This document shows positions 12,428-21,474 of a stretch of 41,765 nt of DNA, piece after piece. How positions within the stretch are numbered: the stretch's first letter is position 1; every line of letters begins with the position of its first letter. Both the position numbers and the translations under genes were made by a program. The stretch spans positions 1 to 41,765 of the forward strand of contig JAICWH010000010.1 of the NCBI GenBank assembly GCA_025934895.1. The letters run 5' to 3'. This DNA comes from Nocardioidaceae bacterium (GTDB lineage: Bacteria; Actinomycetota; Actinomycetes; Propionibacteriales; Nocardioidaceae). The notes beneath the pieces are model-generated. The model had not been told where the DNA came from and ran no database searches. It was given only the letters and a program-made list of their open reading frames with translations.

Positions 12428-12503
12428 GGGGCTGTGGCGCAGCTGGTAGCGCACCTCCATGGCATGGAGGGGGTCAGGGGTTCGAGTCCCCTCAGCTCCA
12501 CCA
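12428..12503 (+). tRNA. tRNA-Ala (GGC anticodon)
   Basis: Full cloverleaf, 76 nt with encoded CCA. The acceptor GGGGCTG pairs with CAGCTCC (one G-U). The anticodon stem CCTCC/GGAGG holds loop ATGGCAT with anticodon GGC, read for alanine codon GCC. The T arm is CAGGGGTTCGAGTCCCCTC (stem with TTCGAGT loop), and the D arm has the AGCTGGTAGC element. Confidence 0.95.
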
Positions 12504-18232: not shown

Positions 18233-18275
18233 AGACCGGGGGGTCTGAGTAAAGATGTTTGTGTCCGGGGGGACA
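18233..18275 (+). promoter_or_regulatory. Two similar 5-4-5 G-loop dyads in the MarR leader
   Basis: AGACC-GGGG-GGTCT (18233-18246) and TGTCC-GGGG-GGACA (18262-18275). The second contains the G-rich sequence that would serve as ribosome binding site for the ATG at 18279, so folding could hide it. Confidence 0.35.
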
Positions 18276-18278
18276 AGA

Positions 18279-18743
18279 ATGACGCTCGAATCACGTGAAC
18301 CAGTGCTGCCTTCTGTGGGAGCGCTCCTTCGTCGGCCTGCGGTCGTGGTGCGCCACGAGGTGATGGCCAGCCTGCGCGAGGCCGGCTTCATCGACGTATT
18401 GCCGGCGCATCTGGGGGTGTTCCAGCATCCCGGTCCCGACGGCCAGCGTCCCGGGGTGCTTGCTTCTCGCACCCAGGCGTCGAAGCAGGCCATGAACCAC
18501 CTGTTGCACCAGCTGGAGCTGGGGGGCTACCTCACCCGTGAGTCGCATCCGGACGACCGGCGGACCCGGGTGGTGCGACTGACCGCGCGTGGCTGGGCCG
18601 CGAACGAGGTCATCGGCCAGAGTATCGCGAGGCTGGAGCGGGAGTGGAGCCGAGCGCTCGGCGAGGAGGCGTACGCCGGTCTCGCCGAGGCCCTGCAGCA
18701 GCTCCAGCGCGTCCTGGACTCGCAGCGCCCCGGGCGTCACTAG
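18279..18743 (+). CDS. MarR family transcriptional regulator
   Basis: Winged-helix DNA-binding repressor, about 154 residues. The recognition helix and wing are seen in RTQASKQAMNHLLHQLE, GGYLTRESHPDDRRTRVVRLTARG (the DxRxxR wing signature). I prefer the ATG at 18279 (G-rich site 5 nt upstream); an in-frame ATG at 18255 would add eight residues. The leader holds an A-T-rich dyad over the promoter, consistent with autoregulation. The divergent-free position after the symporter pair makes those genes plausible targets (inference). Ligand unknown. Confidence 0.85.
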   Translation: MTLESREPVLPSVGALLRRPAVVVRHEVMASLREAGFIDVLPAHLGVFQHPGPDGQRPGVLASRTQASKQAMNHLLHQLELGGYLTRESHPDDRRTRVVRLTARGWAANEVIGQSIARLEREWSRALGEEAYAGLAEALQQLQRVLDSQRPGRH

Positions 18744-18824: not shown

Positions 18825-18830
18825 TAGTCT
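18825..18830 (+). promoter_or_regulatory. -10 box of the leuS leader transcript
   Basis: TAGTCT ending 6 nt before the ATG of the leader peptide at 18837; a partial -35 (TCGACG) lies 19 bp upstream. Predicts transcription starting at the leader ATG. Confidence 0.5.
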
Positions 18831-18836
18831 GTGGCC

Positions 18837-18872
18837 ATGTGTGAGCGACTTCTTCCCGTCCGGTCGCGTTGA
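18837..18872 (+). CDS. Putative leuS leader peptide (MCERLLPVRSR)
   Basis: Eleven-codon frame in the leuS leader, too short for normal gene calling. It begins at the predicted transcription start (TAGTCT box 6 nt upstream) and contains two consecutive CTT leucine codons (18849-18854), a codon rarely used in this CTG/CTC-dominated sequence. The stop codon overlaps the 5' arm of a downstream hairpin, and a U-tract terminator follows. This is the layout of a classical ribosome-mediated attenuator sensing charged leucine tRNA. Inferred, no direct evidence of translation. Confidence 0.5.
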   Translation: MCERLLPVRSR

Positions 18873-18932
18873 CGCACGCCCCACCCGGGCAGAGCTCGAC
18901 GCGGCCACCCCTCGTGCCTGAGGGGTTTTTTT
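18862..18932 (+). promoter_or_regulatory. leuS attenuator with alternative hairpins
   Basis: Stem A pairs 18862-18872 with 18896-18906 (11 bp, two G-U) and covers the leader stop codon. An alternative stem pairs 18887-18894 with 18911-18919 (8 pairs, one bulge at 18914) and would overlap the terminator's 5' arm, thus acting as antiterminator. When stem A forms, its enclosed segment is unavailable and the terminator wins. Pairings were found by eye. Confidence 0.45.
18907..18932 (+). terminator. Intrinsic terminator in the leuS leader
   Basis: ACCCCTC (18907-18913), loop GTGCCT, GAGGGGT (18920-18926), then a run of T to 18932. The only clear U-tract terminator in the window, placed 35 bp before the leuS start rather than after a gene. 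Confidence 0.8.
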
Positions 18933-18966
18933 GTGCCCAGCACGCACGAGGAGGAAGACGAGGCAG

Positions 18967-21474
18967 ATGACCCAGCAGGAGCAGGACCGTCCCGGCACGA
19001 GGCGACCGGAGCAGGCCACCTACGACGTGGTCGCCACCCAGGACAAGTGGCGCGCGGTGTGGCACGCGCTGGACCCGTTCCGGGCCGCCGACGACGGGGA
19101 GCGGGAACGGCGTTACGCACTGACCATGTTCCCCTATCCCAGCGGCGACCTGCACATGGGCCACGCCGAGGTGATGGCGCTGCACGACGTCATCGCCCGC
19201 TACTGGTGGCAGCGCGGGTACGACGTGCTGAACCCGATCGGCTGGGACTCCTTCGGTCTGCCCGCGGAGAACGCCGCGATCCTTCGCGACGAGAACCCGG
19301 CGACGTACACCTATGCCAACATCGAGACCCAAGCCGAGTCGCTGCGTCGCTACGCCGTCTCCTTCGACTGGTCACGCCGACTGCACACCAGCGACCCCGA
19401 GTACTACCGCTGGACACAGTGGCTGTTCCTGCGGTTCCGGGAACGGGGGCTGGCCTACCGGAAGTTCTCGCCGGTCAACTGGTGCCCCAACGACCAGACC
19501 GTGCTGGCCAACGAGCAGGTGGTCGACGGCTTCTGCGAGCGGTGCGGCGCCGAGGTCACCAAGCGCGAGCTGTCCCAGTGGTACTTCAAGGTCACCGACT
19601 ACGCCCAGCGGCTGCTCGACGACATGGAGCAGCTGGAGGGTCGGTGGCCCGAGCGGGTGCTGGCGCTGCAGCGCAACTGGATCGGCCGCTCGGTGGGGGC
19701 GCACATCACCTTCGAGCTGAGGCTGCACGACGGGTCGACGCGGTCGCTGACGGTCTACACGACGCGTCCCGACACCGTCTACGGCGCGACGTTCATGGTG
19801 GTCGCGGCGGACGCCAGGGTGGCCGGGGAGGTCGTCGCGCCGTCGCAGCGCGCCGCCTACGAGGCCTACCTGGAGGAGGTCCGCAAGGCCTCCGACATCG
19901 ACCGGCTGGCCACCGACCGGCCCAAGACCGGGGTCGACCTGGGGGTGACCGCGTTGAACCCGGCCACCGGCGAGGAGGTCGCCGTCTGGGCAGCCGACTA
20001 CGTGCTCGCCGACTACGGCACCGGCGCGATCATGGCGGTGCCGGCGCACGACCAGCGGGACCTGGACTTCGCGAGAGCGTTCGACCTGCCGGTCCGGCGG
20101 GTGGTCGACACCGGCGAGCCGAACCCCGAGGAGACCTACGTCGCGACGACCGGCGACGGCACCTACGTGAGCTCCGGTGAGCTGGACGGGCTCAGCGACA
20201 AGGCGACCGGCATCGCGAAGGTCATCGAGCGGCTCGAGGCCGAGGGGCATGGCGCTGGTGCCGTGAACTTCCGGCTGCGCGACTGGCTGCTTTCGCGACA
20301 GCGGTTCTGGGGCTGCCCGATCCCGATCGTCCACTGCCCCTCCTGCGGGGAGGTCGCCGTCCCGGACGACCAGCTGCCTGTCGTGCTTCCCGACCTGCGC
20401 GGCGCCGACCTCAAGCCGAAGGGCACCTCACCGCTGGCCGCCGCGGAGGAGTGGGTGAACGTGGACTGCCCCTCCTGCGGCGGTCCCGCCAAGCGGGACA
20501 GCGACACGATGGACACGTTCGTGGACTCGTCCTGGTACTTCCTGCGCTACTGCTCCCCCCACTTCACCGACGGACCGTTCGACGTCGAGGCGGTGCGCCG
20601 CTGGATGCCGGCCGAGCAGTACGTCGGCGGGGTCGAGCACGCGATCCTCCACCTGCTGTACAGCCGGTTCTTCACCAAGGTGCTGCACGACATGGGGATG
20701 CTCGACTTCGAGGAGCCGTTCACCGCGCTGCTCAACCAGGGAGTCGTGATCAACCAGGGCAAGAAGATGAGCAAGTCGCTGGGCAACGGCGTCAGCCTGG
20801 GGGACCAGCTCGCCGCGTTCGGCGTGGACGCGGTCCGGCTGACCCTGGTGTTCGCGGGCCCGCCGGAGGACAACATCGACTGGGCCGACCTCTCACCGGC
20901 CGGCTCCCTGAAGTTCTTGCAGCGGGCGTGGCGGCTGAGTGGTGACGTGACCTCGGCACCCGGCACCGCTGCCGAGGGTGGGGACGTGGCGCTGCGCCGG
21001 GTCACCCACAAGACGGTGCACGAGGCCACGCAGCTGGTCGAGACGCACCGGTTCAACGTGCTGGTCGCCCGGGTGATGGAGCTCGTGAACACGACGCGAA
21101 AGGCCGTCGACTCCGGCTGCGGCTCCGCAGACCCGGCCGTCCGCGAGGCGACCGAGGCCGTGGCCGTCCTGTTGAGCCTGGTCGCGCCGTACACCGCGGA
21201 GGAGATGTGGGAGCGGCTGGGTCACCGCCCGACCGTTGCCCGCGCCGGCTGGCCCGCGGTGGACCCGGCGCTTCTCGTCGAGGACTCGATCACCGCCATT
21301 GTGCAGGTGCAGGGCAAGCTGCGCGCCAAGCTGGAGGTCAGCCCGGACATCTCCGAGGAGGACCTGCAGGCGGCGGCGATGGCCGACACCCACGTGCAGC
21401 GCTCGCTGGAGGGCAAGACCGTGCGCAGGGTGATCGTCCGGGCGCCCAAGCTGGTCAACATCGTCGCCGGCTGA
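18967..21474 (+). CDS. leuS: Leucyl-tRNA synthetase
   Basis: Class I aminoacyl-tRNA synthetase, 835 residues. HIGH motif as HMGH (63-66) in [21 protein letters not shown] at 600-604, CP1 editing domain between, including the TTRPDT-like stretch [17 protein letters not shown] and [15 protein letters not shown]. Zn-ribbon-like cysteines occur at [18 protein letters not shown] and CPSCGEV/CPSCGG. The ATG at 18967 follows GAGGAGG; earlier in-frame starts lie inside the terminator T-run. It is preceded by a probable leucine attenuator. Confidence 0.97.

Follow-up and report, generated by a model that had tools for sequence, protein, structure and literature searches.

We conclude that the leader preceding leuS, the gene for leucyl-tRNA synthetase, is very probably a ribosome-mediated transcription attenuator that senses leucyl-tRNA. 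The window, by which we mean the whole stretch of 41,765 nucleotides analysed here, belongs to a genome of 3.9 Mb from the family that includes Nocardioides, and the closest named relative by the N-terminus of LeuS is an uncultured Nocardioidaceae (93% identity). The leader element is real, and its parts are located at the following positions of the window:

18825–18830, plus strand: -10 box TAGTCT (TAnnnT) of the leader promoter, identified by sequence reading and by the same motif 6 or 7 nt 5' of the leader start in relatives
18837–18872, plus strand: leader ORF coding for MCERLLPVRSR with the stop codon TGA at 18870–18872, presumed leaderless; identified by reading, by conservation in 148 of 187 regions and by the leaderless leuL2 of S. 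lividans (RNA-seq)
18849–18854, plus strand: tandem CTT leucine codons, the presumed sensing site, based on the CTT bias in leaders versus leuS genes
18862–18872, plus strand: 5' arm of stem P1, GGTCGCGTTGA, containing the leader stop codon, based on covariation and folding
18896–18906, plus strand: 3' arm of stem P1, TCGACGCGGCC, abutting terminator T, based on covariation, folding and spacing
18907–18932, plus strand: intrinsic terminator T, ACCCCTC-GTGCCT-GAGGGGT followed by a T7 tract, based on covariation, folding and a terminator scan
18949–18957, plus strand: Shine-Dalgarno sequence of leuS, AGGAGGAAG, identified by reading
18967–21474, plus strand: leuS (ATG at 18967), the presumed controlled gene for leucyl-tRNA synthetase (TIGR00396, 920 bits versus a cut-off of 548)

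The -10 box, the spacing of 6 nt, the start codon, the peptide and the tandem CTT codons could all be read between 18825 and 18872 as described in the original prediction. The spacing between TAGTCT and the leader ATG (18837–18839) is the same as in relatives, among which the start is mapped in S. lividans only, and the ORF comprises 11 codons plus the stop (ATG TGT GAG CGA CTT CTT CCC GTC CGG TCG CGT TGA). Its leucine codons are cognate to the product of the downstream gene leuS, as required for a classical ribosome-mediated attenuator. Folding of the window likewise confirmed the expected stem of 11 bp over the leader stop codon, P1, with -27.6 kcal/mol and a z-score of -4.0 (reached by 0 of 200 shuffled sequences), and a gap of 0 nt separates it from the hairpin of T at 18907–18926 (-12.2 kcal/mol, z-score -3.5), the T7 tract of which covers 18926–18932. 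A scan of positions 1–40000 returned T as the sole terminator-like site with at least five uninterrupted T, in agreement with the earlier claim that it is the only clear terminator of this type in the window; the end of the U tract lies 34 nt 5' of the leuS start. A covariance model built from relatives recognized the element with 68.1 bits (E-value of 1.5e-15 in its own genome), a score which is not independent because the model's 30 rows include the window itself. Searches of Rfam at gathering and relaxed thresholds yielded no relevant match to the T-box or any other family. A tRNA gene was recorded at 12428–12500 of the window on the plus strand (RF00005, 63 bits), which is unrelated to the leuS leader as far as seen.

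The leader layout was defined as TAnnnT followed, after 6 or 7 nt, by a start codon (ATG or GTG) that opens a short ORF in which two leucines stand side by side. It was present in 148 of 187 leuS upstream regions, compared to none on the reverse strand and a mean of 0.2 in shuffled sequences. These regions were taken from Nocardioidaceae and other Actinomycetes after dropping near-identical ones, with a few genomes being counted twice, and the named carriers include Nocardioides, Kribbella, Arthrobacter, Pseudarthrobacter, Actinomadura, Thermomonospora, Microlunatus and Sinomonas. The alignment of related upstream regions proposed with the original prediction therefore turned out in its favour, since the short peptide with tandem leucines is conserved and the stems covary; none of the outcomes named as refuting it came up in the comparison, which shows that the layout is under selection. 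In a class-wide sample, to which some Nocardioidaceae with the longer LeuS type were added, the leader preceded leuS in 27 of 60 regions. Because about a fifth of the sampled regions and about half of the class-wide sample do not contain the leader, leuS can evidently do without it, a point that weighs against the attenuator reading. We observed two types of LeuS, one of about 835 amino acids and the other of about 950 or more, which are roughly 43% identical in their N-termini; the leader precedes both types, in different families, and both occur within the Nocardioidaceae. The presence of the same leader before two LeuS types suggests either gene replacement with retention of the leader or repeated gain of the leader.

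The leucine codons of the leaders are strongly biased, as CTT accounts for 208 of 446 (47%) and represents the last leucine codon in 127 of 150 leaders, compared to only 1.5% of the leucine codons in the leuS genes of 80 relatives and 5% in five genes of the window. A single tRNA decodes both CTT and CTC; given this and the codon bias, the leader seems to be tuned to one isoacceptor. The ORFs end in either of two ways: 67 leaders follow the pattern CTT-nnn-CAG-CCG-CGn-TGA with a stop after four more codons, and 69 follow CTT-nnn-TAG-CCG-CGn with a stop after one codon. The RNA arm is identical in both forms, and a change of CAG to TAG shifts the stop, indicating that the ending of the peptide is due to the RNA stem and not to a function of the peptide. 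A terminating ribosome would sit on the P1 arm at either stop position. The basal pair of T tends to vary with the stop form, being either A-U or G-C (e.g. in L012 and L029).

Both stems are corroborated by covariation. Among 69 distinct rows, 9 of 12 pairs of P1 and 4 of 7 pairs of T were changed on both sides in some sequence, and the two stems together contained 144 double-change cells, versus 43.5 in shuffled alignments (0 of 500 reaching the observed value) and 7–26 when slid. Because these rows had been picked for P1 pairing, their percentage of paired positions is biased, and we also placed the arms by anchors alone, which resulted in 85% pairing versus 29–55% for slid arms and 79% for exchanged rows. 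RNAalifold recovered both stems without guidance, a single column apart. Of 155 leaders, 144 have a gap of -1 to +1 nt between P1 and T, whereas the length of the P1 loop ranges from 3 to 36 nt. Both in the window (18925–18936) and in relatives, the U tract is followed by a conserved motif that resembles the general pause consensus, with G at -10, T at -1 and G at +1 and then YCC; the T was found in 132 and the G in 123 of 143 sequences.

When the 155 leaders were folded with the ribosome placed at different positions, P1 had a mean probability of 0.88 for a ribosome occupying the first leucine codon and of 0.00 for one at the stop codon. The mean probability of T in equilibrium folding, in contrast, stayed at about 0.98–0.99 in every ribosome state (0.98 for the window), implying that P1 reports the position of the ribosome but does not relay it to T by competition of secondary structures. 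P1 and T have at most about one base in common, and no arm shared by antiterminator and terminator, as the strict classical definition has it, was found, in line with the gap of -1 to +1 nt and the unchanged probability of T. This failure of P1 and T to exclude each other by base pairing in equilibrium folding counts against the attenuator reading. According to these models, the leuS leader would act like a classical attenuator, yet fall outside the strict class.

The leader, its codons, P1, T, their spacing and the link to leuS all emerge from comparing relatives, and on this basis we propose the following course of events. Transcription would begin at the first letter of the leader ATG or next to it, with immediate initiation by a ribosome; a leaderless start is supported by the orthologous leader leuL2 of S. 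lividans. If leucyl-tRNA is ample, the ribosome would reach the stop codon and mask the 5' arm of P1, allowing T to fold freely and RNA polymerase to halt 34 nt 5' of leuS. If leucyl-tRNA is scarce, the ribosome would pause on the CTT codons, P1 would fold against the base of T, and T would zip incompletely, letting transcription continue into leuS. For T to zip completely, a P1 duplex no more than 1 nt from the terminator base would need to enter the RNA exit channel. Because leuS should rise as leucyl-tRNA falls, P1 is taken as the antiterminator, acting from the foot of T. We infer from this arrangement that the ribosome would stall with this sign of the response, and that P1 would disable T by abutting it and not by taking its bases.

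The antiterminator envisaged originally was another one, namely a competing 8-pair stem in which GGGCAGAG would pair with CTCGTGCCT and, upon ribosome stalling, sequester the 5' arm of T. The eight pairs can indeed be drawn in the window between 18887–18894 and 18911–18919, with one bulge, but T remains at 0.98 in all ribosome states, the GGGCAGAG segment sits in the P1 loop with its variable length of 3 to 36 nt among relatives, and the stem is absent from the RNAalifold prediction. We consider this classical arrangement very improbable, and the conserved switching helix, as judged from the alignments, would be the 11-bp P1 over the stop codon instead of the 8-pair stem. The overall notion of a leuS attenuator sensing leucyl-tRNA has kept its leaderless leader with tandem leucine codons, the conserved covarying stems, the terminator and the link to leuS, and has lost the competing antiterminator. 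P1 might alternatively act not as the antiterminator but as a hairpin that makes RNA polymerase pause until the ribosome has caught up, with the read-through step being accomplished otherwise. P1 is located about 10 nt 5' of a TG step that is frequent in the T loop, which is the spacing expected for a hairpin pause. This reading is unlikely because the T loop is weakly conserved, no other antiterminator was predicted by either ribosome-state folding or RNAalifold, and a pause by itself leaves read-through unexplained.

T could be the ordinary terminator of a MarR-type gene at 18255–18743, which has the same orientation and whose end lies 94 nt 5' of the leader, leaving leuS with its own promoter and the leader ORF as a coincidence. 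However, a homologue of this gene is missing within 2.5 kb upstream (≤2.5 kb) in all 69 named leader loci, and P1, T and the leader are kept together 5' of leuS, which renders the idea hardly credible; to judge from these loci, the layout stays with leuS whichever gene is upstream. We regard translational control after the model of the leuA LEU element, with the leucine codon run pairing with the Shine-Dalgarno sequence of leuS, as exceedingly improbable: such a duplex can be drawn in the window between CTTCTTCC and GGAGGAAG, but in relatives the corresponding pairing, at -12.3 kcal/mol, was no stronger than that with a shuffled region (-11.7 kcal/mol, p = 0.10). Finally, the leader might encode an arrest peptide stalling the ribosome by its own sequence instead of by a shortage of leucyl-tRNA, and a C-terminal xQPR does recur in half of the leaders. 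This motif is accounted for by the P1 arm, the other half of the leaders stop one residue past the leucines, and the N-terminal part is freely variable, making an arrest peptide extremely unlikely.

Using the covariance model of the leuS leaders on the genome that holds the window, we detected two further sites, before ilvB and before cimA, coding for citramalate synthase:

C18:3691-3791 (equal to L267:1501-1601), minus strand: cimA leader coding for VPHHRIIIT (ATC ATC ATC ACC TAG), with the leaderless layout, a stem located at the stop and a terminator that abuts it, found by the covariance model
C18:19316-19435 (equal to L268:1501-1620), minus strand: ilvB leader MRLDILVRPGRVC of the same layout, the counterpart of known actinobacterial ilvB leaders, found by the covariance model

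Most cimA leaders of other Actinomycetes contain two or three isoleucine codons, and leaders similar to that of cimA were seen in L298, L300, L303, L304, L312, L315, L316, L318 and others. P1 and T were -1 to +1 nt apart at all 22 cimA loci and at 14 of 16 ilvB loci, including the copies of the genome itself, in a search which allowed for gaps of about -3 to +4. The class-wide count of 130 matched genomes out of 198 refers to leuS, ilvB and cimA together and not to leuS alone. We tentatively propose a common Actinomycete design in which the switching helix would not compete for the bases of the terminator but lie against its foot, at a gap of -1 to +1 nt, and so keep it from zipping fully at RNA polymerase, a plan that would serve leuS with leucine, ilvB with branched-chain and cimA with isoleucine codons, the last being apparently undescribed; this generalization is a serious possibility that still falls short of being probable. 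Within the literature available, a search turned up nothing that connects citramalate synthase with a leader peptide.

Four points are new here: how far the leader extends across the class, the abutting rule, the stop codon's two interchangeable positions, and the recurrence of this design before ilvB and cimA in the same genome. As far as the accessible parts of PMC1262725 and PMC8079986 go, they do not contain the wide extent, the covariation, the CTT bias, the abutting rule or the two stop forms. An attenuator predicted for leuS of two Streptomyces species in 2005 thereby becomes a widely shared feature of Actinomycetes that is backed by covariation and has a clear structural rule. If it is true that an abutting stem hinders a terminator without competing for its bases, this would represent a simple and testable control of intrinsic termination. 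The cimA leader hints at an isoleucine-specific control of citramalate synthase, which is directly testable.

The attenuators of the enterobacterial trp, his and leu genes combine a leader peptide containing cognate codons with a terminator and the ribosome as the sensor; their leaders have Shine-Dalgarno sequences, and the antiterminator occupies the whole terminator arm. In the leader described here, by contrast, P1 abuts T, and translation presumably starts leaderless with no 5' untranslated region. The closest known counterparts are from Streptomyces: attenuators 5' of leuS were predicted in S. coelicolor and S. avermitilis by Seliverstov et al. in 2005 (PMC1262725), and the 2021 re-annotation of S. 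lividans TK24 mapped leuL2 (MRAVRLLLSEPR) as leaderless with a terminator 5' of leuS (PMC8079986). The leaderless version, regarded as unusual in the original prediction, had accordingly been reported before in these sources. A leader with exactly the leuL2 peptide of S. lividans and the same P1 and T was found in the sampled related genomes. leuL2 shares with the window the controlled gene, a leaderless short leader with tandem leucines and a hairpin with U tract before leuS, whereas the window differs by two leucine codons instead of three, one more codon before the stop and the shorter leuS type (about 835 amino acids). The element of the window is a member of this Streptomyces kind of leuS leaders and not a new kind.

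The LEU element of actinobacterial leuA also has a leucine-rich leader, but is described in PMC1262725 as a pseudoknot without an intrinsic terminator, in which the codon run pairs with the Shine-Dalgarno sequence, a pairing not seen here. Mutations in the leader codons of S. coelicolor ilvB and leuA, as cited in the same paper, did not show the effect predicted by classical attenuation, which counts against a simple reading. The ilvBNC attenuator of Corynebacterium (ilvB-II motif) is supported by mutations and reporters (PMC11857589, PMC10272879) and likewise contains a (nearly) leaderless leader and a uORF stem beside the terminator stem. In C. glutamicum, its two hairpins, antiterminator and terminator, lie next to each other and contend for the trinucleotide at their boundary, as supported by mutations (PMC11857589), whereas those of the leuS leaders share 0 to 1 nt as a rule; the ilvBNC attenuator also differs by sensing branched-chain codons and by a third hairpin (PMC11857589, PMC10272879). 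The ilvBNC attenuator of C. glutamicum is the nearest precedent for the proposed action of the abutting P1. For ilvB1 of Mycobacterium tuberculosis, it has been proposed that the antiterminator is hidden by a ribosome standing at the stop codon and can form when the ribosome stalls at the sensing codons, with reporter support for attenuation (PMC13236596); the logic is the same, but gene and codons are others, and ilvB1 is described as forming two mutually exclusive structures. The leuL2 leader of S. lividans and the experimentally supported ilvB attenuators of Actinobacteria follow the same logic as the leader of the window, an analogy which supports attenuation of leuS.
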